NCBI RefSeq assembly: GCF_030734285.1 | Contig: NZ_CP132294.1 | Location: forward strand, 3,782,001-3,846,000 | Source of the DNA: Natronococcus sp. AD-5 | GTDB taxonomy: Archaea > Halobacteriota > Halobacteria > Halobacteriales > Natrialbaceae | Direction of reading: 5' to 3' | DNA: 64,000 nucleotides | Shown: positions 2,842-19,237 of the stretch, piece by piece | Layout of the letters: each line of letters begins with the position of its first letter | Position numbering within the stretch: position 1 is the first letter of the stretch | Translations under genes and position numbers: made by a program | The notes under the pieces: model-generated | Told to the model about the DNA's origin: nothing | The model's database searches: none | What the model saw: only the letters and a program-made list of their open reading frames with translations

Positions 2842-4968
2842 ATGGTCAGGTTATTAGATAGTCTTGATAGAGCACAGGGTGATCCTGAGAAGGATATTCA
2901 TTTTGCCCTCGAGTTAGGGCAACTTTTTAATTCAATTGAACGAGACGAGGATCTGGACGAGGATACACAGTTACATCTTGAGGAGATGGAAGGAGAGTAT
3001 CTGCTTCCGGACCTCGTTGAGTACCTAACGGACTGGTACGGTGAGGAGGAGTTTGAGTCCGCACGAGAAGCACTATCTCTTTTGGAAGACGGGATTGATG
3101 ATGCAGTGGACAATAATTGGTTGCAGGTCGCCACGCAATATCATCACCGTCTCATCAGTCTCAAGGCTGGACTCGCAGGCCATGACGTCAGTGACGAAAT
3201 AGACCAAGTATTGGACTACTTGGAACGCAACTACCACTCTATCTCATTGCAGTTCATTATTTCAGTCATCGAGATTGTATTCGCCAATCTTGATGACGTT
3301 TCGGCGTCGGATGCCGACCGCTGGGAACAGCTGATCAAGGATATTGCAGCGTCGCACCGGTCAGCGAACCGGTTTGATCAGCAGCGAGAGTATCTCCGGT
3401 TACTTCGTCGGCTGAAAGTCAAGTGTGAGGAGAGTACAGATACTGTGGAGGAGCAGTTGATCGACTCGTACCGAGATGAAGCTGACCTCGCGGCCACCGA
3501 CAGTGACCTGCGAAAATCCGATATCCTCCAAAGTGGCGTCAGTGAATGCAGCCAGTACATGAATGATGCCACGAAGCGAGAGTGGAAACAAGAGGCACTG
3601 CAAGCACGTCGCAGAGGCAGTCAGAATGAACTCACAGAGTTGAGTCTTGATGACCTTGATGTGGATGGATTCGGCGATGAAGACCTTGAGGAGGCAGTCT
3701 TTCAAGAAATGGAAGAGCTTACTCAGGTGTACGTCGACTGGTTTAAAGGAGTTAAAGAAACCTGGGGATCGAGCACATACGCCCTCTATTGCTTAGCACT
3801 CTCACGTAGTCCTATCCCAGATCCGAATCGTATTCGTCTCTCCACCGAACAGTACGTGTTCTCAGAACTAGTGCAACGCAATATTATCTCACCGGAGGCA
3901 CATACTTACTCAGTGGATCCATCAGACGTAGATACGATTCCTAGCAGCTATAGTCATGCGGCAGCAACTAGAATGAGTTCACTTGGTAACGCTCTCTATC
4001 AATTAATGAAAGAAGGCCATCTCTCGGCCACTGACTTTATCGCCTTATTTCGGATTGGCAACTCATTGTCGCCTGATACTGAGGCATTCATCACTGATGG
4101 ACTCTTTGACTTATTCAACGACAACCACGTCCAAGCGCTGTTTGTGCTTGTTCCACATCTGGAGGCTGTCATTGTAGACACCTTAGAGTCTATCGGCCGA
4201 CCGGCATACACAATTACCGAGCAGGGTACACAACAGCAACTACTCGGTGGATTATTCATCGAGGGTAGCGACCTGTTCGGGAGTGACTATGCGATGTATC
4301 TACGCTACAGGTATACCAGCCGCGAAGGAACCAACCTTCGGAATCGATTATCCCACGGCCAGTTACGATACAGGAATGCAATCTATCTGAATTCGGTTTT
4401 GACCTTGTTCGACATAGTGAAATGTATGATTTGCTTGAACATCTCCCCCTACTTGGAACGATTTACGATACCAAATCGAACCTTGTCGCCATCAACACAC
4501 TATAACCAGCCAACAGACCTCTCATTGTTCACAGATTTAAATAAGCAAATTGTTGGATATGGCCGATCAGAAGATGGTCATTCCATCTTAGTACTACGTG
4601 AGGATCGTCACAATGAGGTTACTGAACTATTTCTTGATAAGGGTCGGATTGAAAGATACCGTATCGATGGTGTTGGTCATTCACGAGAAGAACTACGAAC
4701 TAAGATTGATCAACTCCGGGAAGATCATCCGATCATTCCCGAGGAAATCAATCATTCCTGGCTTGACCGAGACGACCTAATCTTAGAGGCGATTATGGAA
4801 ATCATTGAAGAGGAAATAGATTCCGACAGTAGATCACTCAATAAGGAAATGCTCTTTGAGAAGGCTAAGACGCGTGGTATTGACGAAAGTAGAGCACGGC
4901 TCTCCCTCCGTCTTTTAGAGGAAGATGGAGTGATTGAGCAGGCGGAAGATACAGTATCCCTTTCTTGA
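2842..4968 (+). CDS. DUF4209-like protein with HEPN-type RN(x)3H motif
   Basis: A 708-residue, mostly helical, acidic protein. Residues 500-506 read RNRLSHG, which fits the R-x4-H core of HEPN ribonucleases and the RN-x2-x-HG signature I associate with DUF4209. The surrounding helices match that fold by eye. The last 50 residues look like a small winged helix (LNKEMLFEKAKTRG, then LRLLEEDGVIE). The gene lies 394 bases after the ATPase module, in the same direction, and is flanked by copies of a 19-bp palindrome. HEPN RNases are common effectors in toxin and abortive-infection systems, so it may be the effector of the locus or a separate defence gene. The lack of tight coupling leaves that open. 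Confidence 0.65.
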   Translation: MVRLLDSLDRAQGDPEKDIHFALELGQLFNSIERDEDLDEDTQLHLEEMEGEYLLPDLVEYLTDWYGEEEFESAREALSLLEDGIDDAVDNNWLQVATQYHHRLISLKAGLAGHDVSDEIDQVLDYLERNYHSISLQFIISVIEIVFANLDDVSASDADRWEQLIKDIAASHRSANRFDQQREYLRLLRRLKVKCEESTDTVEEQLIDSYRDEADLAATDSDLRKSDILQSGVSECSQYMNDATKREWKQEALQARRRGSQNELTELSLDDLDVDGFGDEDLEEAVFQEMEELTQVYVDWFKGVKETWGSSTYALYCLALSRSPIPDPNRIRLSTEQYVFSELVQRNIISPEAHTYSVDPSDVDTIPSSYSHAAATRMSSLGNALYQLMKEGHLSATDFIALFRIGNSLSPDTEAFITDGLFDLFNDNHVQALFVLVPHLEAVIVDTLESIGRPAYTITEQGTQQQLLGGLFIEGSDLFGSDYAMYLRYRYTSREGTNLRNRLSHGQLRYRNAIYLNSVLTLFDIVKCMICLNISPYLERFTIPNRTLSPSTHYNQPTDLSLFTDLNKQIVGYGRSEDGHSILVLREDRHNEVTELFLDKGRIERYRIDGVGHSREELRTKIDQLREDHPIIPEEINHSWLDRDDLILEAIMEIIEEEIDSDSRSLNKEMLFEKAKTRGIDESRARLSLRLLEEDGVIEQAEDTVSLS

Positions 4969-5042: not shown

Positions 5043-5061
5043 CGTATTAATCGTTAATACG
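5043..5061. repeat. 19-bp palindrome, copy 2 (inverted)
   Basis: CGTATTAATCGTTAATACG is the exact reverse complement of the copy at 2625-2643. It lies between the converging ends of the DUF4209-like gene and the serine recombinase gene, 12 bases beyond the recombinase stop codon. Confidence 0.7.
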
Positions 5062-5072
5062 CAATCTGGCCG

Positions 5073-5849
5073 TCAGAACATCGCCTCCAGGTCGGTGTGC
5101 TCTTCTGCGACTTGTCTGTAGACATCGAGTCGGTCAAGCATGAGATCGAACGCAGCGCAAGGAGATGGGATATCGAACTGATTGCCGACCCTGTACTTCG
5201 ATTTATCTGTTGTGTGATATTCGTTGAGCGCACTGATCACAGTTGAGAACTCCTTATGGTGTTCTTCGTGTTCTTCGATTGGTTTCCACTCGTCATCCTC
5301 AATCTTCACCCCACGCGGAGGACATCCCACCGGAAGACCCTGCAGTCGTCGCTCTTTGATCATATTTTTGGAGGCCTCCCGTGCCTCTTCGATCTTCATC
5401 TGGTCGATCATCTTCATTTGACCTTCCATCCCAACTGCCGCAGCTCGCTTGGTCCCGTCGTCCGATTGCTTGAATTCCTGGACGACCTTCTGCAGGCCAG
5501 TGGGATTGACCATAATGATATCGACGTCTACTCCGTGTCTGTCATAGAATCGTTGTTCGATATCATCGATGGACTTCCCGCGAGACAGACGGTTCCCCTT
5601 CCGAATCAGGATAGTCGAGAGGAGTGGGTCCTCCTTTATCTTTTCAACCAGTTCACCGAACTCTTCTCGTCCGAAGGGATCGGTAGATCCTGAGACGTTG
5701 GCGTCTTGGAACCACCCAACGAGTCTGTAACCGTTTTCCTCGCAATGACGTACGATCTCCTGTTTCTGGTTTTGAAGGGACGTGTCCTCTTCTTCGCTGT
5801 TTGTCTGTGAGATACGACCATAACCGACGACTCTGATGTTTCTACTCAT
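5073..5849 (-). CDS. Serine recombinase (resolvase/invertase family)
   Basis: A 258-residue protein with an N-terminal resolvase catalytic domain. The nucleophile is S14 in the YGRIS motif, followed by SLQNQ and the basic RKGNRLSRG stretch near residue 90, typical of site-specific serine recombinases. Residues 170-185 (GLPVGCPPRG) and the C-terminal helices probably bind DNA, but the large C-terminal domain of serine integrases is missing. It is therefore closer to a resolvase or small invertase than to a phage integrase. It stands alone on the minus strand with a hairpin-rich region upstream (5944-6163) that could hold its target sites or operator. A role in resolving or inverting element DNA is inferred. 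Confidence 0.85.
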   Translation of the reverse strand: MSRNIRVVGYGRISQTNSEEEDTSLQNQKQEIVRHCEENGYRLVGWFQDANVSGSTDPFGREEFGELVEKIKEDPLLSTILIRKGNRLSRGKSIDDIEQRFYDRHGVDVDIIMVNPTGLQKVVQEFKQSDDGTKRAAAVGMEGQMKMIDQMKIEEAREASKNMIKERRLQGLPVGCPPRGVKIEDDEWKPIEEHEEHHKEFSTVISALNEYHTTDKSKYRVGNQFDIPSPCAAFDLMLDRLDVYRQVAEEHTDLEAMF

Positions 5850-6309: not shown

Positions 6310-6576
6310 CTATCCTTTGACAAAGTGTACGACATTCCTATGCGGCTTCTCGAATCGTACCCACAAGACGCCATAGGCCATCGTAGCCATCCCGAGAATC
6401 ACCAACCAGACGTTGCCGGTCTGAATCAGGAAGAAGGCGATCACAAGACCGGCGAATCCGAACATTGCTTCTTTGGTGGTATAGATCCGGACCCACCACG
6501 TCTCCACTTTCTCTGGGTAGAAGTGGAGTGCGACGAGCATGAACAGAACGATACCACCCATGATCACTGCACTCAT
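6310..6576 (-). CDS. Small membrane protein, three TM segments
   Basis: An 88-residue protein, last gene of the minus-strand set. Hydrophobic segments lie at about residues 3-19, 36-52 and 55-72, separated by a short charged loop (FYPEKVETWW) and followed by a basic tail. It starts at an ATGA overlap with the gene before it. I recognise no family. Small multi-helix membrane proteins of this size include capsid proteins of membrane-containing archaeal viruses and accessory subunits of secretion complexes. Neither can be shown here. Confidence 0.7.
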   Translation of the reverse strand: MSAVIMGGIVLFMLVALHFYPEKVETWWVRIYTTKEAMFGFAGLVIAFFLIQTGNVWLVILGMATMAYGVLWVRFEKPHRNVVHFVKG

Positions 6577-6776
6577 CGTGCACCCCCACTCTTTCGGCCG
6601 TTCTTGAGGAGTCGATGGAATCTGTCGAGAATCAGATACCCGACGTAGACAACAATCAAGACTAATGCGATTGCAATGGTGCTACCTGCCGTGAAGACCG
6701 ATGTGATCAAGACGAGAATGACACCGAGCCATACGAACCATCCCCCAAGGGAAGAGGGGAGTTTGACATCGATCAT
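6573..6776 (-). CDS. Small membrane protein, two TM segments
   Basis: A 67-residue protein with two hydrophobic helices (about residues 11-29 and 32-50) and a basic C-terminus (RFHRLLKNGRKSGGAR) that should stay inside the cell. Start and stop overlap both neighbours by four bases (ATGA), so the three genes 7726-6310 are translationally coupled and likely made together. Its size and two-helix layout recall major capsid proteins of spindle-shaped and pleomorphic archaeal viruses. The likeness is only structural, and no sequence family is recognised. Confidence 0.7.
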   Translation of the reverse strand: MIDVKLPSSLGGWFVWLGVILVLITSVFTAGSTIAIALVLIVVYVGYLILDRFHRLLKNGRKSGGAR

Positions 6777-7726
6777 TCTCCACCACCTCCACCACTGCCC
6801 GTGAGAGACTTCATCCGCGTGGGAATTTGGGACATATCGTTCACCGTGAGGACAGTCTCGTCCATCATCCCAACCTTGTGTCTGTAGTAGACCTTCGGAT
6901 TCTCTCTCTGCTCATCGAGGTTCTTGAACAGAATATGGGCGTGTGGTCCCTCTTCTTCCTCAATGCAGACGTCATCGATGTCAGCTTTGGTATTGCACTT
7001 GGGCACGGGAATCTTGTCGCCAACTGGGACCGGTCTGTCTGGTTCATAGACGACGTGGATTTCCGTGGCATTCTCATCTCCGATTTTCGTATCCACGATT
7101 GTTGTCTCATTATCGATCTTGCCCTCGTTGATTGTCACTTCCTCCCACGTCTCGGCGGAAGACATAGTGGGCATCCCGGTTGCATTCGCAATTGTATCCT
7201 TGGCGCTGCTCCGCACACTGAAGATCGTTCCCGCCATTTTATCGATGGGATAGACGACAGACCCACGTTCCTCGAACTCAACAGTGACCTGCGTGTACTC
7301 CTCTCCATCGACCGTGACTCGTTCGAGGTCTGCCGTCTCATTCCCCTCCAAAGGTTCGAGATCCTCTTTCGGGCGAGGATCGAAGTAGTCCGTTGGGACC
7401 AGGAATTCGACTTCCTCCGATTCACCGTCAATGATGTCATCGTATTCGACCTTCAGGAAGTCATTCGTAGAATCCAAGACGAACTCCTCATATCCAACGT
7501 CGTCTGCCTTCTCAGCGACAGATACGTAGACTATCCGCTCTTGGGACTCATACATATCTGCAGTCACGCGACCTCCTCTGTCGTATTCTTTGAGCGTTTC
7601 TTCCTCTTCGAGCGCGTTGACAGGGTCTTTCTGTTCTGTTTCATCTGCCACCCCCAATCCGGCGGGGATTGAGAGTACCAGCAGACTCACCAGTACAAGA
7701 ACCTGTACCGTCTTTCGGCGTATCAT
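6773..7726 (-). CDS. Secreted acidic protein of unknown function
   Basis: A 317-residue protein. The start is taken at the ATG at 7726, two bases after the upstream gene's stop codon, because it gives a clean signal peptide: a basic MIRRKTVQ, a hydrophobic core of about 18 residues, then an acidic mature chain. The rest is rich in Asp, Glu, Thr and Val and looks like beta-sandwich extracellular domains. There is no C-terminal membrane helix; the chain ends in a Gly-rich tail. Tight coupling with two membrane proteins downstream suggests a surface or exported complex. No enzyme motif is visible. Confidence 0.7.
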   Translation of the reverse strand: MIRRKTVQVLVLVSLLVLSIPAGLGVADETEQKDPVNALEEEETLKEYDRGGRVTADMYESQERIVYVSVAEKADDVGYEEFVLDSTNDFLKVEYDDIIDGESEEVEFLVPTDYFDPRPKEDLEPLEGNETADLERVTVDGEEYTQVTVEFEERGSVVYPIDKMAGTIFSVRSSAKDTIANATGMPTMSSAETWEEVTINEGKIDNETTIVDTKIGDENATEIHVVYEPDRPVPVGDKIPVPKCNTKADIDDVCIEEEEGPHAHILFKNLDEQRENPKVYYRHKVGMMDETVLTVNDMSQIPTRMKSLTGSGGGGGE

Positions 7727-7728
7727 GG

Positions 7729-8094
7729 TTACATCTCCAGTCCGTCGTCTTTGACTTCCCAAAGTGGCCACGAGGACTCATCAACCGGCCACCAATCATC
7801 AACGGTCGGGATTAACCGAAGAAGTGGGAACCAGATTGCGATCATGAAGTAGATCACAGCTGCAGCGGTCAGGAACGTCCCTGAGGCGATGATCATCACA
7901 ACCGTCAATCCGAAGACTCCAGTAAGGTGGCCGGTTCTGTCGGCAAAGCCCAACCCTCGTGGAATGGTATCCCGACCCCAGACCAAGATACTCAGGATGC
8001 TTGGTGGGATGAGATGGGTGAGCTTGAAGTCCCTCGTTGTTTCTTTGACGTTTCCTCCCGTTCCTCTGATTTCGTCTGTTACTCTGTCTCGCAT
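7729..8094 (-). CDS. Membrane protein with two hydrophobic segments
   Basis: A 121-residue protein with a charged N-terminus, a weakly hydrophobic stretch near residues 27-38, and a strong paired hydrophobic region at about residues 58-92. A Trp-rich acidic tail (DDWWP, SSWPLWE) follows. The stop codon lies two bases before the start of the secreted protein gene. The upstream gap 8095-8221 carries GGGTAGGGGTTTCG, the reverse complement of a motif in repeat block B (13597-13611). No family is recognised, and it belongs with its neighbours as part of a membrane-surface gene set. Confidence 0.65.
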   Translation of the reverse strand: MRDRVTDEIRGTGGNVKETTRDFKLTHLIPPSILSILVWGRDTIPRGLGFADRTGHLTGVFGLTVVMIIASGTFLTAAAVIYFMIAIWFPLLRLIPTVDDWWPVDESSWPLWEVKDDGLEM

Positions 8095-8221
8095 GTCGAA
8101 TGTGACATTAAATTTTCATGATCTATACCGCGAAGGGGGTAGGGGTTTCGTAATATGCACTACTCTTGATACCTGTTCTACCCGAATTCAGGCGTCTCAG
8201 GGGCGGTGTCGAATAGTTACA

Positions 8222-8941
8222 TTAGAGGAAACCCCAGAGCATGGCTGCGTATCTGTCTCTGCGGCTTTCGAACCATGTATCCGACTTCCGAGCTGTCCAT
8301 GGATTATCGATTGCCTCGGCTTTCGAGTTTTCGTAGAATCCGACTTCCTCCCACCTCTCTCGGTGGTCAAGGAAAGACCCAAACTCCGCGAAGTTGGTCA
8401 CATCGACACCTTCTTTGTCGTCATCTGGAGTGTAATGGTGCCATGGGTCGACGACCTCAAGAGAGACATTTGTCCCATTGATCAGTGGGATGTCTTTCTC
8501 GATCACACCGACGGAGTGGTGGCCTTTCGTATACACGACTTCCTCGACGTCACCCGTGTCTGGGTTCACAAAGGTGATGCTTGGTTCGTGGTCCCAGAGG
8601 TGGGCATCGGAAGCCAAGAGCCCGGCGACTCTGTCTGTGATCCCGAGTTCCTCAAGACCCGCATTCTGGTTCGTGTACCGAGCCCAGTAGGAATATGCGT
8701 CTGTATCATGGTCGGGAGACTCGGCTTTCCAACCATACAGACCGATTAACTGGTCTCTGGATTCGGACCCGCGGGAGTACGCAAGATACGGCATGTACTC
8801 GCGCAGCTCGTCAAGGTCATCTGTTCGAGTGATCTCGTCTCCGTCATTCTCCCAGTCCCTCTCGGCAGCGGCACTGCCAGTGAGACCAAGAGATGTAGTC
8901 CCCATCGTTGCGATGAAGGCACGGCGACTATGTTCCGTCAT
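8222..8941 (-). CDS. Tat-exported protein of unknown function
   Basis: A 239-residue protein. The ATG at 8941 gives a twin-arginine signal (SRRAFIATMG followed by a mild hydrophobic run and a small-residue cleavage area ending SAAAERD), so it is probably exported folded, the common route in haloarchaea. The mature part is acidic, rich in Trp, Tyr and His, with no membrane helix and no motif I can assign to an enzyme. Its start lies four bases after the stop codon of the large surface protein, so the two are one transcript. It is likely a partner or cofactor-binding subunit of that protein, by position only. Confidence 0.65.
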   Translation of the reverse strand: MTEHSRRAFIATMGTTSLGLTGSAAAERDWENDGDEITRTDDLDELREYMPYLAYSRGSESRDQLIGLYGWKAESPDHDTDAYSYWARYTNQNAGLEELGITDRVAGLLASDAHLWDHEPSITFVNPDTGDVEEVVYTKGHHSVGVIEKDIPLINGTNVSLEVVDPWHHYTPDDDKEGVDVTNFAEFGSFLDHRERWEEVGFYENSKAEAIDNPWTARKSDTWFESRRDRYAAMLWGFL

Positions 8942-8945
8942 TTGA

Positions 8946-11900
8946 TCACCCGATGTATGGGAGTTTGCCGAATTTCTGGTTGAAGCTGTGCTTAACTTCA
9001 TCCCAGAAGCTGGGATCTTCGTTGACATCGACCGTCACAGACCCATCACTGTCCGTGTGGGTGTACATGACGACCTTTCCGTTATCGCGTTCCTGGAGTT
9101 CTCCGTACCGAGTCTCGCCATCCCAGGTGACAGCGTGGCCATCGACGTAGACCAGTGAATTGTCGCTCAGGGAGTCGAAGTGGAGCGTCAGGGGGACGTT
9201 CGATTGGGCCTGGCGTTCGTCGTGACCCTCGTAGACATCGATGTTCAGGCGGTGGTCAGTTCCAGTGAGCTTTTCGCTTGGGTTGATGTTGAGATCCGAG
9301 GGAACCTTGTTTTGGGGTGCGATTGCCTCGATATCGATTGAGGTTCGCGAGGTCTCGACTCGAGCAGAGTGGAGCTTGTCGCCAATGACGGCGTGGTCTT
9401 CTCCATCGGCAGACGTTGCTCGAATCGTTGCCGGGTCATCCCGACCCTCTTCCTTGACCTTGAGCCGTTCACTGACAACGAATTGATCGCCAGTGGTGGA
9501 CTCGATGGTCAGTCGGATGAAGTGGTTCCCCTGTTCTGCTGCCTCGAAGGAGACCTCATCATCGTCAACGGTCGTATTGACCTGCTGGCCGTCCGGCGCG
9601 GAGACCTCTGCATCGACGACCTGCTGGAAGTTCTCATCGGCGTTGACGGTCATGTAGATCATCTCACCCGGTCCAGGACTCAGCGTGTTGAACTGGATGG
9701 ACTCGATGTCAGGAGATTCACCCTCGAACTTCGGATTCTCAACTGGGACACGGTCATCGAGGTGGCCGTCTTCGCCAGCTGCCTGAATCCGGATGTTGAA
9801 GTCCTTCTCGCTGTTGACGGGGTAGTCCTCGATCACGAGAACGTCCGACGAGGAGAAGATTCCACCTTGCGACTCGATGGACCAGTACTCTTCGTCGATT
9901 TTCTCATGGGACCCGTCTGCATAGTGGACCTCCGGAACGACGGTATCAGAGTCAATACCTCCCGGAATGTTGTACTCCGCGTTCAGCAGACCGTCATCAA
10001 CGTCAGCGGGGTCTTCTGGGAGTTTAGGTGGCTCAACTGTTTGTGCGTTGGCAAGGGCCACCTGCATCGTTCGGGTTTCATCCTCGAGTTCGGTATTCGA
10101 GAGAGACTCCGCGTCCTGGATGGAACCGAAGTCAGACCGATCGAGGTATTCGTCTTCCGCGTTCGGGACCGTCTCAACGAGAGTTGCATGGTCTTCATAG
10201 ACTCGTTCGAGTGAGGAACGTTCCATTTCATCGAAGCGTTCATTGTACTCGGTCTGGAGGTCATCTACGGTCTCGTTGAGGCGTTCTTCCTCAAGGAATT
10301 CCTGCAGGTCCGCGAAGAAGTCAATATCCTCTACCGGAACACTTGGAGTCTGGTAGACGGTGACCTCCACGTTCTCTGCAGACGAGTCAACTGTCTCAGG
10401 GACAGGAGACGGAAGATGGAACGGTCCATCGTATCCGCTTGTCTCTGCCTCTCTGAGATCCTCAAGGGATGGATCCTCGACACCTTCGAGCGCCGTCCCG
10501 TCTGCCTTCATCGCCCGCACGTCAACGGTGACGACATTGTCAGGCATCTCGAGGTTGAACTCCCCGTTTGCGTCCGTTTGCGTCGTCTGTCGAACGAGGT
10601 GTTCTTGGTCGAGTCTACTCTGGATTTCTTCTGCGCGTTCGGTGAGCTGGTCTGCCTCGTCACGGAGGTCAGACTCGAACGTCTCCCAGAGTTCGTCAGG
10701 GTCACCAACGACAACGGTGACTGCCTTTTCCGGACTGTCTTCCTGATGGATCTGGTAGACACCTCTCGGGAGTTCAGCCCGAGCCGTGTGCCATTCCCGG
10801 TCATCCCGGATAGTTCGGCCCTCAACGACGTTGAGTTGGGTGTCGTACGTCGTAGAGTCCAACGTCTCACCAGTTGGACCAATCTTCTCAACGACGAAGG
10901 TTCCCTTCATAGGGGCACCTGGATGGGAAGACCGGACAGGCGACGTATCCGTGAATCCGCCTTCATCTTTACTGGGATCCCACAGTGAGAGAATCAACTC
11001 TTCATCCTCTTCGACGTGGATGCGTGGTTCGTCAACCTCCTCAGAGAAGATCGTGGTTCTACCGAAGCCCCAGTCTTCCTTCTTGTGAACCATAGGATAA
11101 GTTCCGTCAACGTCAGACGTGAACTCATCAAGATCCATCATCCCTTCGTCTGCCTCATAGGAGTCTTGGAAGTTGTCCCATTCGTCAGGGATTGGGTCCG
11201 TGAGTTCATCTCGAAGGTCTTGGGCCTGTTCCTCAAAGGGTTCCGCAGCATCCGGATTGAGGGCGGATTCTGCAACCCCCCATCCCTCGACGGTGGCATT
11301 GGAGACAGGGTCGCCGTGTTGATTCACAACTTGACCAGACGGATGGTCAGCACCTGCACTCGATACTGCGAAGTCGTCGAGGTGGATGTCTTCCTCTTCC
11401 GAACTCAGACTCGACCAGTGGTCGTAGTCAACTTTGAGTTGAGTCTGTTCGGGATCGAGGCTCCCAGTCAGATCGGCAGTATCCACAAGATTGCCATCCC
11501 GGTAGAGGTAGACGCTCTCTCCGTCCGCCTCGACCTTGATATCTTCCCAGGACCCTCTGACAGGATCTCCCGTGGTCGAACTGTTTTCCACGAGAGACCC
11601 AGCGAGTTTGCCATCCGCATTATACGTGTTCCTGAATCGGACGTGGTTCTCGCCGTCAGTTAGCTCAACGTGGAGCTTACCTCCCGTTGTATCGGCGTCA
11701 TTATTACTGAACCTCTGGGAGAAGGAGAATGAGAACATTTCCCCATCGTCAATGACACCAGGGTTGGTTTCTGCATTGCCACTGTCACCGTCGGCATAAC
11801 CCCAGACGTGCAGGGAGGTGTCACCGTCAGATGCGTACGTTGTATCTGTCTCTGCATTGCCTGAGAGAGTCCACTCAGACATATCACCCTCAAAGGAGTA

Positions 11901-12065
11901 GTACAACGCATCATCACCCTCATGGTCGCTTGCTGTAACTGTTCCACTACCTCCAAGATCCATGACTCCTCCCAGTCCTGATGTGACGATCAAGACCGAG
12001 AAGAGGACAGCCATGAACTGTTTCCTTGGAAGTGATTTTCTTGCCGCTCGTAATCTCTGTATCAT
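8946..12065 (-). CDS. Large secreted modular surface protein
   Basis: A protein of about 1040 residues. A start at 12065 (MIQRLRAARK) or 12089 gives a basic N-terminus and a signal-like hydrophobic segment. Next comes a region like a concanavalin A/LamG sandwich (roughly residues 55-245), then two short carboxypeptidase-regulatory-like repeats (GQVVNQHGDPVSNATV near 255 and TDANGEFNLEMPDN near 505). A helical, Glu-rich stretch (about 590-660) and several Ig-like beta regions follow. No transmembrane helix is seen at the C-terminus, so anchoring would need a partner. It is the dominant product of the gene set and could act in adhesion, as a viral spike or in the cell surface layer. The modular layout is seen directly; the role is not. 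Confidence 0.65.
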   Translation of the reverse strand: MIQRLRAARKSLPRKQFMAVLFSVLIVTSGLGGVMDLGGSGTVTASDHEGDDALYYSFEGDMSEWTLSGNAETDTTYASDGDTSLHVWGYADGDSGNAETNPGVIDDGEMFSFSFSQRFSNNDADTTGGKLHVELTDGENHVRFRNTYNADGKLAGSLVENSSTTGDPVRGSWEDIKVEADGESVYLYRDGNLVDTADLTGSLDPEQTQLKVDYDHWSSLSSEEEDIHLDDFAVSSAGADHPSGQVVNQHGDPVSNATVEGWGVAESALNPDAAEPFEEQAQDLRDELTDPIPDEWDNFQDSYEADEGMMDLDEFTSDVDGTYPMVHKKEDWGFGRTTIFSEEVDEPRIHVEEDEELILSLWDPSKDEGGFTDTSPVRSSHPGAPMKGTFVVEKIGPTGETLDSTTYDTQLNVVEGRTIRDDREWHTARAELPRGVYQIHQEDSPEKAVTVVVGDPDELWETFESDLRDEADQLTERAEEIQSRLDQEHLVRQTTQTDANGEFNLEMPDNVVTVDVRAMKADGTALEGVEDPSLEDLREAETSGYDGPFHLPSPVPETVDSSAENVEVTVYQTPSVPVEDIDFFADLQEFLEEERLNETVDDLQTEYNERFDEMERSSLERVYEDHATLVETVPNAEDEYLDRSDFGSIQDAESLSNTELEDETRTMQVALANAQTVEPPKLPEDPADVDDGLLNAEYNIPGGIDSDTVVPEVHYADGSHEKIDEEYWSIESQGGIFSSSDVLVIEDYPVNSEKDFNIRIQAAGEDGHLDDRVPVENPKFEGESPDIESIQFNTLSPGPGEMIYMTVNADENFQQVVDAEVSAPDGQQVNTTVDDDEVSFEAAEQGNHFIRLTIESTTGDQFVVSERLKVKEEGRDDPATIRATSADGEDHAVIGDKLHSARVETSRTSIDIEAIAPQNKVPSDLNINPSEKLTGTDHRLNIDVYEGHDERQAQSNVPLTLHFDSLSDNSLVYVDGHAVTWDGETRYGELQERDNGKVVMYTHTDSDGSVTVDVNEDPSFWDEVKHSFNQKFGKLPYIG

Positions 12066-12154
12066 GTAGTATCTATGATCTATCCGCATTCGGTACGACT
12101 CAAGAATTAGACACCATTGGCGGTGGGATTCCGCCCCACAGAGACAGGTTCTGG

Positions 12155-12844
12155 TCAGTCACCTGCGATCTCAATGCCAGGTTGGTTGAAATCAGGCAGA
12201 TGGGAGTTATCGACGTCTTCGTGTGATTCAGGATAATCATCCGCGTTTTCGATCATATCTTCGACGAAGAATTCGGGTTCTTTCGGCTCGTACTCAATCA
12301 CGTCTGCGTGTTTGTTCACTACATATTTCAAGAGGTCCCGAGGTTTGGCAAACTGGTCTTCTGGCCTGTTCGAGTCCAGGAGTTTCAGGAACTCGACGAC
12401 CATGCCCTTCTTATCGACACGCACTCGCCGATCGTCACTGAGCTTCTTCCCGATCTCCACGAGTGCCTCCTTGAGTTCCTCGTCAGTGAACTCCTCCTTG
12501 TAGACCGTCTCGTGGTATTCGACACCGCATTCGCAGATCGGGTACGATCCATACCGCGCAGACAATGACCCGTCAACATCGTCACGTCGGCCGCCATCGG
12601 AGTCGAAGTGGGTTGTCTTCCCGCCAAGACCCCGGATGCGTCTCTTTTGCCTCCGAATGGCCTTCTCCTTGAGAGAATTCGTTGGATTGTCCTGATCCCG
12701 GTCGTAGACGTTGGCACTGTCTACGTCTCCGGGTCTGTCCATCACTCCGCGAAGGATGTACCCCTCTTTGACTCAGTTGAAGCAGTTGTAACAGATGTTC
12801 GGACATTGCTTTACTCGCTCGTTCCAGACTTGCGGTCCAGGCAT
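12155..12844 (-). pseudogene. Cys-containing protein gene interrupted by an in-frame TGA
   Basis: A frame opens at the ATG at 12844 and codes for 23 residues with a C-x3-C-x2-C cluster (CPNICYNC). It meets TGA at 12775-12773 and then runs on without a stop for more than 200 residues in the same frame. The downstream part has another Cys pair (CECG, about 70 residues into the downstream part) that could complete a zinc site. A GTG/ATG at 12745/12742 could restart translation to give a 196-residue protein. One TGG to TGA change would explain the break. The alternative is two separate genes, a 23-residue peptide and a 196-residue protein. Its role in the gene set is unknown. Confidence 0.5.
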
Positions 12845-12926
12845 TCTTATCACCGAAGATACCGACGACTAATGGCGGTCATACAGCGACTCCGAAGAGC
12901 CAGCTCGTACAACCAAGGCTTGCTTC

Positions 12927-13181
12927 TCAGAACGGAACCCAGTTGAACGATCCCTCTCCCGTCCAGAGCCATCTCATATTGCCAGAGGCATGGTCCCAGA
13001 CAGCCGAAGAGATCAATGCGTTCCACTCCGCTTCATTCCCCATAATGAGGGTGTAGAGTGCGTTCAGGGCGAAGAGCACAACGCCAATCAGAAGCGCGAG
13101 TGGGTAGAGTACGACGTGGTACAATGGGATGTAGAAGATCCCAATGGCCACTCGCTTCACCATTCCCGGTCTGTCTGACAT
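12927..13181 (-). CDS. Small membrane protein
   Basis: An 84-residue protein with a long hydrophobic region (about residues 10-46, probably two helices) and a soluble Trp-rich C-terminus. Its ATG overlaps the TAA of the preceding 39-residue gene by one base (TAATG), which ties it to the start of the minus-strand set. No family is recognised. With the proteins at 7729, 6573 and 6310, it makes four small membrane proteins in one transcript alongside three exported proteins. Confidence 0.65.
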   Translation of the reverse strand: MSDRPGMVKRVAIGIFYIPLYHVVLYPLALLIGVVLFALNALYTLIMGNEAEWNALISSAVWDHASGNMRWLWTGEGSFNWVPF

Positions 13182-13300
13182 TAGATCTCAACTCCGAACT
13201 CGTCAACGATCGCCTCTTGCCACGTTCTGTCGCCCTTCACACTCTTGAGCCGATCGTACGTCTCCTCATCGAATGGCGCGTTCAAATGCTTGAAATTCAT
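13181..13300 (-). CDS. 39-residue VapB/DUF7557-like small protein
   Basis: A short gene of 39 residues, from ATG at 13300 to TAA at 13183-13181, overlapping the next gene as TAATG. The sequence MNFKHLNAPFDEETYDRLKS followed by VKGDRTWQEAIVDEFG has the form of small haloarchaeal VapB or ribbon-helix-helix-type proteins (DUF7557-like, name from memory). It is the first gene after a TATA-like box and may regulate the whole operon. No toxin partner such as a PIN protein is adjacent, so a toxin-antitoxin role is not supported. Confidence 0.6.
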   Translation of the reverse strand: MNFKHLNAPFDEETYDRLKSVKGDRTWQEAIVDEFGVEI

Positions 13301-13570: not shown

Positions 13571-13750
13571 CATTAAATTTTCAGTGTCTCTACTACGAAA
13601 CCCCTACCCGTTTTCCAATTGACACGGTATACAGGCCCTGAGACATAGGTCTGTAGGTGTCTGAAAACGGGAAGAAAGAATACTAGTTCTGTTGTAATCT
13701 TATTCTTCAGATATTATTTTGTCTGAAACAGCTATTACGTAGATGAGTGA
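13571..13750 (+). repeat. Non-coding repeat block B (homologous to 2508-2733)
   Basis: The gap 13338-13891 holds no convincing gene. Its middle part repeats the order of block A: a TAAATTTTCAG stretch, CGAAACCCCTACCCG (13597-13611), GGTCTGTAGG (13648-13657), and the terminal CTGTTG, TTCTTCAG, CTGAAACAGCT, ACGTAGA series (13687-13744). The rest of the gap (13338-13570 and 13751-13891) shows nothing clear. Confidence 0.6.
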
Positions 13751-13891
13751 ACGAAACAGGGATTCTTCTCCAATTATAAATATGCTGAACGAGGTGTGTT
13801 GAATATACAGAATAAGTGAATAGAGTAATATCTAACGAGAAGTGACCCGTTTGGAGGCACGGTAAAGTCGCTTCCCCGCGAAATAGACCGC

Positions 13892-15118: not shown

Positions 15119-15137
15119 CGTATTAGTGGTTAATACG
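15119..15137. repeat. 19-bp palindrome, copy 3 (variant)
   Basis: CGTATTAGTGGTTAATACG differs from the other two copies mainly in the centre. CAACAGAGCC (15084-15093) lies 25 bases before it. Read on the minus strand this gives palindrome then GGCTCTGTTG, the same order and nearly the same spacing as in block A (2625-2643 then 2685-2694). It also sits about 40 bases upstream of a TATA box, where an operator could act. Confidence 0.6.
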
Positions 15138-16348: not shown

Positions 16349-17068
16349 TCAACTCGTCTGTCCATCCGAGAGCACCGAATATAGACGTCGAGCATCCCCA
16401 TCATTCCGGAAGATCGAGTTATTCGCAGTCTCCAGTATATATCCTGGTTCGTATTCCGTCTGTCGGCACATCTCTGCATGCAGCAGCGCAAGACTGATGA
16501 GATTCCCATAGCACTTCGTATCGACATACTGGCTGCGGAACGTCGCGTAGAGATGCAGTCTATTTCGTCGGGGTTTGAACTGGAGCTGCGTCAGACACGG
16601 GATGTTGGGTTCGAGTGGCTTGCCGTCGGTCGCCTTCTCGAGATCCGGTTCGAGCTGGAAGGACTGCGCAACGAGTGCGTTTGTGGTCTGCCCGTGGTTA
16701 CCTTGTTTGAGACGATCAGCGATTAGTTGAGGTTGGTTACGCGGCTCCGTTAGTCTGGAAGCGTACAGACCCTTGAATAACTCCTCGATACGGTCTTGCA
16801 CCCAGTAGCGGCCCGTACTACCGTCGGTAAACTCGAAGTTCTCGAAGCGGCTGAGGGCCTCTCCTGCGTTGACGATCTCGGCCCAGTTGGTGCGTTCCAG
16901 TGAGAAATCGGTGTAGTCGGTCGAGGATACAGGCTCAGAGATATGGACGACGTGATAGTCGTGCGGGAAGAGCCCGTGAAGTCGAGACTTGAGGAGTGCG
17001 GTATATGCTGCCCCGACATCGGGCGCGCTGATGTATGGTGTTATCTCGGACGGTACCATACTAGACAT
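16349..17068 (-). CDS. Thymidylate-synthase-fold protein
   Basis: A 239-residue protein whose C-terminal half follows the thymidylate synthase pattern. NIPCLTQLQF places a Cys (C158) where TS has its catalytic PC. RNRLHLYATFRSQ gives the strand and the conserved Arg-Ser pair near residue 178-179, and a helix and EPGYILETANNSIF match the end of the TS core. It is shorter at the N-terminus than ThyA. TS-fold relatives in viruses methylate or hydroxymethylate dUMP or dCMP to modify DNA, and some haloarchaeal relatives are uncharacterised. The start may be at 17068 or the ATG at 17059. It diverges from a winged-helix coiled-coil gene. Confidence 0.6.
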   Translation of the reverse strand: MSSMVPSEITPYISAPDVGAAYTALLKSRLHGLFPHDYHVVHISEPVSSTDYTDFSLERTNWAEIVNAGEALSRFENFEFTDGSTGRYWVQDRIEELFKGLYASRLTEPRNQPQLIADRLKQGNHGQTTNALVAQSFQLEPDLEKATDGKPLEPNIPCLTQLQFKPRRNRLHLYATFRSQYVDTKCYGNLISLALLHAEMCRQTEYEPGYILETANNSIFRNDGDARRLYSVLSDGQTS

Positions 17069-18487: not shown

Positions 18488-19237
18488 CTACCCGACGTCG
18501 TGGTCCGCGGAGTTGTCCCGGGGCTCGTAGTCGAGGACCTCGCGGGCGCGGTCGATCGAGTAGTACTTGCGGTCGTTATCGGAGATGCCGTAGACGATCT
18601 CGTACTCGTAGTTGGCGCGGATACAGCGGTCGAACAGGTGCGCGCAGTCCCGGTAGGAGAGCCACATCGCCTGGCCGCGCTCGTAATCGATCGGCGGGTG
18701 TCCCTTCGTGAGGTTACCGATGCGGACGCAGACGACCGAGAGCCCGTATTCGTCGTGATAGTACCGGCCGAGGGATTCGCCGGCGGCCTTCGAGACGCCG
18801 TAGAGGTTGCCCGGACGGGGGAGTTCCGTCCCGTCGAGGAGGTAGTCGTCGTGGGGGCGGTACATGTCGGGGGTTCGTTCCTCGGTTTCGTAGGCGCCGA
18901 CGGCGTGGTTCGAGGAGGCGAAGACGACCTTCTCGACGTCCCTGTCGGCGGCGGCCTCGAAAACGGTCTGGGTGCCGTCGATGTTGTTCGTCAGGACGCT
19001 ATCCCACGGTGCTTCCGGACGCGGGTCGCCCGCGAGGTGGATCACGACGTCGATCCCCTCCATCGCCTCGCGCATCGTCTCGTCGTCGGTGATGTCCCCG
19101 ACGACGAACTCGCCCGGCTGGTCGTCCGTCGGCGGGTCGCGGTCCATCAGACGCCACTCGTGCTCGTCGGCGAGGTCGCTGAGGATGGCCTGTCCGACTC
19201 GCCCCGCAGCCCCCGTCAGCAGGACTGACTGTGCCAT
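18488..19237 (-). CDS. azf: NAD-dependent glucose-6-phosphate dehydrogenase (Azf type)
   Basis: A 249-residue extended short-chain dehydrogenase. TGAAGRVG near residue 9 is the Rossmann NAD-binding loop, and the catalytic Tyr-Lys pair sits in the YGVSK motif around residue 144. The sequence agrees with Azf, the haloarchaeal enzyme that oxidises glucose-6-phosphate with NAD at the start of the oxidative pentose phosphate pathway. The start at 19237 (MAQSVLLTGA) fits the family better than the longer open frame. Members of the wider epimerase/dehydratase family look alike, so the substrate is inferred from memory of the family. Confidence 0.7.
   Translation of the reverse strand: MAQSVLLTGAAGRVGQAILSDLADEHEWRLMDRDPPTDDQPGEFVVGDITDDETMREAMEGIDVVIHLAGDPRPEAPWDSVLTNNIDGTQTVFEAAADRDVEKVVFASSNHAVGAYETEERTPDMYRPHDDYLLDGTELPRPGNLYGVSKAAGESLGRYYHDEYGLSVVCVRIGNLTKGHPPIDYERGQAMWLSYRDCAHLFDRCIRANYEYEIVYGISDNDRKYYSIDRAREVLDYEPRDNSADHDVG

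Follow-up and report, generated by a model that had tools for sequence, protein, structure and literature searches.

Our analysis of a 64,000-nucleotide window of the Natronococcus sp. AD-5 genome (NZ_CP132294.1, positions 3,782,001 to 3,846,000) suggests, with a probability of roughly 0.78, that a nine-gene operon of a 23-kb integrative element, on the minus strand between positions 13300 and 6310, represents a reduced version of a plasmid-vesicle (PV) envelope module of the pR1SE/apHPV type; we infer vesicle production from this gene content. pR1SE (apHRPV1, KX687704), a plasmid of Halorubrum lacusprofundi R1S1, spreads in vesicles with plasmid-encoded proteins and is the sole plasmid shown to travel in vesicles with its own proteins (PMC10818511). 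As judged by gene-by-gene comparison, seven of the nine genes are homologues of the PV genes ORF6, ORF8, ORF10, ORF14, ORF17, ORF18 and ORF19 of pR1SE. All core products but ORF25 have been detected in pR1SE vesicles, and the counterparts of ORF6, ORF8 and ORF17 were found there by mass spectrometry (PMC10818511), which fits the proposal of the initial annotation that the operon encodes a virion-like or surface apparatus.

All nine minus-strand open reading frames (ORFs) listed in that annotation are intact, and its assignment of four small membrane proteins, a Sec-type and a Tat-type exported protein was borne out. The operon begins with a putative regulator of 39 amino acids (aa; 13181-13300), followed by an 84-aa transmembrane protein of the ORF10 family (12927-13181) and a 196-aa CxC protein (12155-12745). 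Next come the ORF6 homologue, a large Sec-exported surface protein (8946-12089) that had been given as 1040 residues and is 1047 aa long, or 1039 aa from its likely ATG at 12065, and the Tat-exported ORF8 homologue (8222-9028; 268 aa, or 239 aa from its likely ATG at 8941, 4 nt past the stop of the ORF6 gene). The last four genes encode an ORF14-family small membrane protein with transmembrane segments (7729-8094; 121 aa), the Sec-exported surface protein ORF17 (6773-7771; 332 aa, or 317 aa from the likely ATG at 7726), and two small transmembrane proteins of the ORF18 (6573-6776; 67 aa) and ORF19 (6310-6576; 88 aa) families. The "several" four-base overlaps noted earlier are exactly two (6773-6776 and 6573-6576), a third overlap being of 1 base (13181). 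A promoter-like intergenic region of 127 bp before ORF14 (8095-8221) contains direct and inverted repeats (D6, I15), and its repeat is also present upstream of the operon (13571-13609). There are therefore probably two transcription units, predicted to comprise the 39-aa, 84-aa, 196-aa, 1039-aa and 239-aa genes and the 121-aa, 317-aa, 67-aa and 88-aa genes, respectively. The G+C content of the operon region is about 49-56%, compared with 58-73% in the remaining window from 19 kb onward.

A search for the same gene order in other haloarchaea, as the initial annotation had proposed, recovered homologues of seven of the nine genes, mostly in the same order, and the remaining two have homologues in a sister element. 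Given these homologues, the largely shared order and the purifying selection on ORF17 described below, the nine ORFs are not the product of chance. Direct matches to pR1SE and Halopiger proteins were obtained for ORF6, ORF8 and ORF14, and for ORF6 and ORF8 also to Halosolutus proteins; for ORF14, the phmmer match to pR1SE (E 1.5e-7) agrees with the alignment. The more divergent genes are best understood by distinguishing the pR1SE lineage (type A) from a second one (type B), labels that we coined in this analysis. The 84-aa protein clusters in phmmer searches with pR1SE ORF10 and its type-B homologues. ORF17 could be matched to the pR1SE-type family solely by profile-profile comparison (probability 98.5%, E 3e-15). 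A type-A ORF18 hidden Markov model (HMM) scored 22.2 bits (E 1.8e-5) on the window ORF18, whose position and 4-bp overlap are as in pR1SE, and ORF19 was matched to type-A ORF19 by profile-profile comparison (88.6%) and alignment, the type-B ORF19 family spanning 11 genomes. When profiles were compared in a 15 by 9 matrix, values above 40% occurred solely for the positionally expected pairs, and the order ORF6-8-14-17-18-19 and the ORF17/18/19 overlaps agree with both pR1SE and the type-B elements.

The two other genes have relatives in a compact element of another genome, G047, discussed below: the 39-aa protein has a homologue in the same operon position (L150:10326-10442, E 2e-13) and the CxC protein is 56% identical to L150:10442-11140. 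No counterpart of the CxC protein was found on apHPVs, and it had no plasmid match. Negative profile comparisons ruled it out as ORF21 or the type-B ORF21 counterpart, and its weak matches to UCR_14kD and IcmW were below cut-off.

ORF6 homologues were found in 39 of 391 genomes of the class and on 18 haloarchaeal plasmids including pR1SE (E 3e-72), with none in phages; the closest, on a Halosolutus plasmid, is 48% identical (E about 1e-230). The N-terminal part is variable, with a weak LamG/CBM-like signal, and the conserved C-terminal part is modelled as tandem Ig-like domains (pLDDT 68 overall, mostly 80-94 in the C-terminal part, the variable N-terminal 240 residues being of low confidence); fold-search matches were limited to generic Ig-like tandems. 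The Halosolutus plasmid carries a tandem pair of ORF6 copies (L022:15819-22682), and at four loci (L025, L026, L032 and L058; three closely related, in different genomes) ORF6 homologues lack ORF7/ORF8 neighbours in the stretch read.

ORF8, present in 44 of the 391 genomes, matched pR1SE ORF8 with E 1.7e-12 and Halosolutus ORF8 with 9e-31. An RR motif near the start of all 27 homologues is the basis for placing the start at 8941. Its AlphaFold model has the fold of necrosis/ethylene-inducing-protein-like (NLP) proteins, with VIA Z scores of 11.2-12.6 to eight NLP entries and of 3.6 to the next unrelated fold; a Tat signal and an NLP-like fold are also reported for pR1SE ORF8. The RR is invariant, as are H114-x-x-D117-x-E119 and H141 in 24-28 homologues; the H-x-x-D-x-E motif and H141 resemble by sequence the acidic/His metal site of NLPs. 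A comparison with viral predicted structures gave nothing significant. ORF17 is 50% and 46% identical to its counterparts in compact elements and 21-36% identical to type-B ORF17, and is under purifying selection, with a dN/dS of 0.16-0.24 that is a rough estimate given synonymous changes near saturation; the values for ORF14 and ORF18, about 0.2-0.34 in those comparisons that allowed an estimate of dS, are similarly rough.

By published criteria, the element is not a complete apHPV. Among the six markers, ORF6 and ORF8 are present, the latter with the NLP-like fold (Z 12.6). The type-A ORF17 HMM gave no match to the window protein, which thus falls short of the published 50 bits, and for ORF21, ORF23 and ORF24 the element yielded neither type-A HMM matches nor type-B counterparts. 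The published rule asks for at least three of six markers and only ORF6 and ORF8 count here, so the element would probably go unlisted, even as incomplete. In contrast to pR1SE, it lacks ORF7, ORF9, ORF13, ORF15 and ORF20-25 and has a divergent ORF17, and it is integrated, 23 kb long, and carries a tyrosine integrase and a serine recombinase of its own as well as the additional 39-aa and CxC genes. The ORF7 S8 peptidase had no match in the element and, in the rest of the genome, matched nothing but generic subtilases, and an ORF25-type ATPase, of type A or type B, was found nowhere in the genome. The 2023 survey predicted a role for this ATPase in recruiting plasmid DNA into vesicles (PMC10818511). 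The lack of enzymes pointed out in the initial annotation is thus real, and it is informative, since a protease and an ATPase are part of the known system and both are missing here.

Profile comparison also indicates that the PV packaging cluster has a second, previously unreported lineage, type B, represented in at least 15 genomes of haloarchaea. Twelve genomes with a window-like ORF17 share a conserved gene set after ORF17-18-19 that matches pR1SE cluster 2 mainly at the profile level: an ATPase corresponding to ORF25 (98.4%) precedes counterparts of ORF20 (99.9%), ORF22 (97.3%), ORF23 (95.3%) and ORF24 (94.2%). In all 12 genomes, the type-A HMMs that we built score below 50 bits on the type-B counterparts of ORF17, ORF21, ORF23 and ORF24. 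Since 50 bits is the score used by the 2023 survey in its search of NCBI genomes (PMC10818511), the type-B cluster is too divergent for such a screen. That survey reported 34 elements with cluster 1 alone and suggested that they are possible remnants (PMC10818511); many of them may instead be type B. Type-B elements as defined by us include those on plasmid CP026314 (39,196 bp) of Salinigranum rubrum, on NZ_CP135527 of Halomontanus rarus and on NZ_CP019330 of Natronorubrum daqingense. Among apHPV-type elements, those of type B have the ORF17/18/19 nearest in sequence to the window's; unlike the window element, which lacks ORF7, ORF9 and cluster 2 past ORF19, they mostly retain ORF7-9 together with a complete but divergent cluster 2 that includes the ATPase. 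Of the 18 searched genomes with a type-B-like ORF17, 15 have the type-B ATPase, the exceptions being this genome and two carriers of compact elements (G137 and G064). Type A and type B are intermixed in trees of ORF6 and ORF8, and cluster 1 therefore gives no clean answer on origin.

Pleolipoviruses encode membrane and exported proteins in small genomes, and the ratio of envelope proteins together with an integrase could also be read as a novel enveloped virus, a pleolipovirus-like provirus. We consider this very improbable. Our scans of 50,697 phage records, PHROGs and IMG/VR returned no homologue, in searches that included no dedicated pleolipovirus profile; no virus-type replication or spike genes were found, and the homologues sit on plasmids. 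The annotation's view that the operon is unlike known pleolipovirus or pilus operons accordingly holds with respect to phages, although the apparatus is not an unknown one, being of the PV kind described in 2017 and 2023. Its stated alternative, an already described secretion or respiratory complex, found no Pfam or NCBIfam match above cut-off.

The operon sits on an integrative tyrosine-integrase element of about 23.07 kb in the chromosome, inserted at the 3´ end of a NAD-epimerase gene. The gene end forms attR (18500-18593), a 94-bp direct repeat whose identical copy, attL, lies beside the integrase beyond the left end of the window (-4576 to -4481), at a distance of 23.07 kb. Two genomes of the same genus represent the empty site, with the left flank directly abutting the epimerase gene. 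The integrase, the att repeat and these empty sites establish a discrete element. Relative to these genomes, an additional stretch of about 800 bp with a DUF7344-like ORF separates the left flank from attL (-5381 to -4580, L044) and is possibly the scar of an earlier integration at the same site. The element also encodes a serine recombinase (resolvase; 5073-5849, minus strand; PF00239, 1.6e-16) and a 239-aa weakly thymidylate-synthase (TS)-like protein (16349-17068, minus strand; TIGR03283 E 1.4e-8, below cut-off).

Several further features lie on the element or elsewhere in the genome. A 577-aa SMC-like ATPase (LmuB-like of Lamassu by PADLOC, E 1.3e-26, with a weak ASRP match) and a 155-aa partner at 247-2447, 90% identical to the copy in a Natribaculum element, are possible defence cargo. 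A 708-aa DUF4209 protein (2842-4968) matches the PADLOC candidate PDC-S39 (E 4.7e-19), and a type IV pilin-like gene within the element adjoins the integrase (L044:16726-17112, window about -3273). A repeat of 41-70 bp, TTCTTCAG...ACGTAGA, has two copies in the element (2681-2743 and 13690-13759), one on the second replicon (C2:587990) and 1-3 in five other genomes; it is perhaps a small mobile repeat, and we dropped it as a packaging signal on account of its dispersal among unrelated genomes. The second-replicon copy is about 7 kb from decayed apHPV fragments of ORF8 and ORF7 (C2:580771-581019, L087).

The element belongs to a family. A 19-bp palindrome, CGTATTANNNRTTAATACG, has five copies in this genome, all within the element (including 2625-2643, 5043-5061 and 15119-15137, with 0 expected in the window). 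Among 125 family genomes it is otherwise found only in G064 (one copy), G137 (two) and G047 (one), and the reversed control gave 0. A single IMG/VR match was attributed to chance, being on an AT-rich contig (27% GC) with only weak integrase similarity to compact elements. In G064 and G137 (Natribaculum breve TRM20010, NZ_CP095390), the copies fall within compact elements, the related element of G137 using the same att site with a repeat of its own, and the copy in G047 led us to a fourth element that protein searches had not revealed. These four compact elements, in four genera, carry differing subsets of the PV membrane and surface genes, and none has the ATPase. A backbone of integrase, TS-like gene (239 aa, 69-76% identity across elements; E 2e-125 for G047), palindrome, ORF14 and ORF18 is constant, integrase and ORF14 being present in 4/4; the exported proteins vary. 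The elements of G137 and G064, unlike that in the window, lack ORF6, ORF8, ORF10 and a clear ORF19. The G047 element shares the 39-aa gene, CxC gene and ORF19 with the window element and is without ORF6, ORF8, ORF10 and ORF17; its ORF14 and ORF18 are 6 bp apart, a clean junction where this genome has ORF17.

This family bears on what the reduced gene set represents. The element could be an integrated apHPV undergoing decay, an origin that Lucking et al. proposed for elements with cluster 1 only; the missing genes, the rearranged ORF10 and the ORF7/ORF8 fragments with stops elsewhere in the genome are consistent with it. We think this rather unlikely, given nine intact ORFs, tight junctions, purifying selection and identical att repeats, and given a four-element family whose common backbone and palindrome do not resemble random loss. 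Alternatively, displayed PV envelope proteins could block entry or exit of rival apHPVs or viruses. The retention of small membrane proteins ORF14/18/19 alone in G047 would suit such exclusion, as would the defence-like genes (LmuB-like SMC and PDC-S39) in the Natronococcus element; the exported, receptor-type ORF6 and ORF8 kept here do not, and we know of no precedent in this family. We regard it as quite improbable.

A further proposal is a sub-mechanism of the reduced envelope module, so that our confidence in the two overlaps by design: the element would be unable to package itself and would travel in, or remodel, vesicles made by a helper apHPV, contributing surface and membrane subunits of its own while relying on the protease and ATPase of the helper. 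We entertain this tentatively. The compact elements all keep PV membrane or surface genes, an integrase and the common palindrome with no ATPase, apHPV genes such as ORF8 are common in the class, and decayed ORF7/ORF8 pieces on the second replicon are in line with it. Against it, a present-day helper was not found in G137, G064 or G047 and no shared packaging signal was identified, mobilisation by a helper being a proposal. By analogy with phage satellites and capsids, all four compact elements might be PV satellites that spread or interfere by remodelling helper vesicles, a generalisation that we consider possible but doubtful.

Under the reduced-module reading, ORF10, ORF14, ORF18 and ORF19 would assemble within the cell membrane after induction or excision, while Sec would export ORF6 and ORF17, and Tat would export ORF8, to the outer face. 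There, ORF6, ORF8 and ORF17 could act as surface, receptor-binding and membrane-perturbing proteins that, jointly with the small membrane proteins, shape vesicles or modify those of the host or a co-resident apHPV. As the genome lacks the PV packaging ATPase in both its type-A and its type-B form, loading of element DNA would be absent, unspecific or helper-supplied; the outcome could be non-loading vesicles, helper dependence or another use of the proteins such as exclusion. Several points weigh against the reduced-module reading. Vesicle formation by the element is argued from its genes, and with ORF7, ORF9 and ORF20-25 missing the set might be insufficient. ORF18 and ORF19 are weakly similar in sequence to those of pR1SE (hhalign probability 46% and 89%), and G047, with ORF14, ORF18, ORF19 and no exported protein, indicates that compact elements may not build a particle.

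New here are the type-B lineage and the four compact elements with a common palindrome. Our data suggest that vesicle systems can shrink to dependent or repurposed forms, and the satellite relationship, if true, would to our knowledge be the first for a vesicle-borne plasmid. With a naturally reduced set in this genome and natural subsets in its sister elements, the question of which genes make vesicles becomes one of deletion and complementation. The type-B cluster 2 implies that cluster-1-only elements may represent a second lineage of complete systems and not remnants, and this lineage would raise both the known number and the diversity of vesicle-plasmid candidates.

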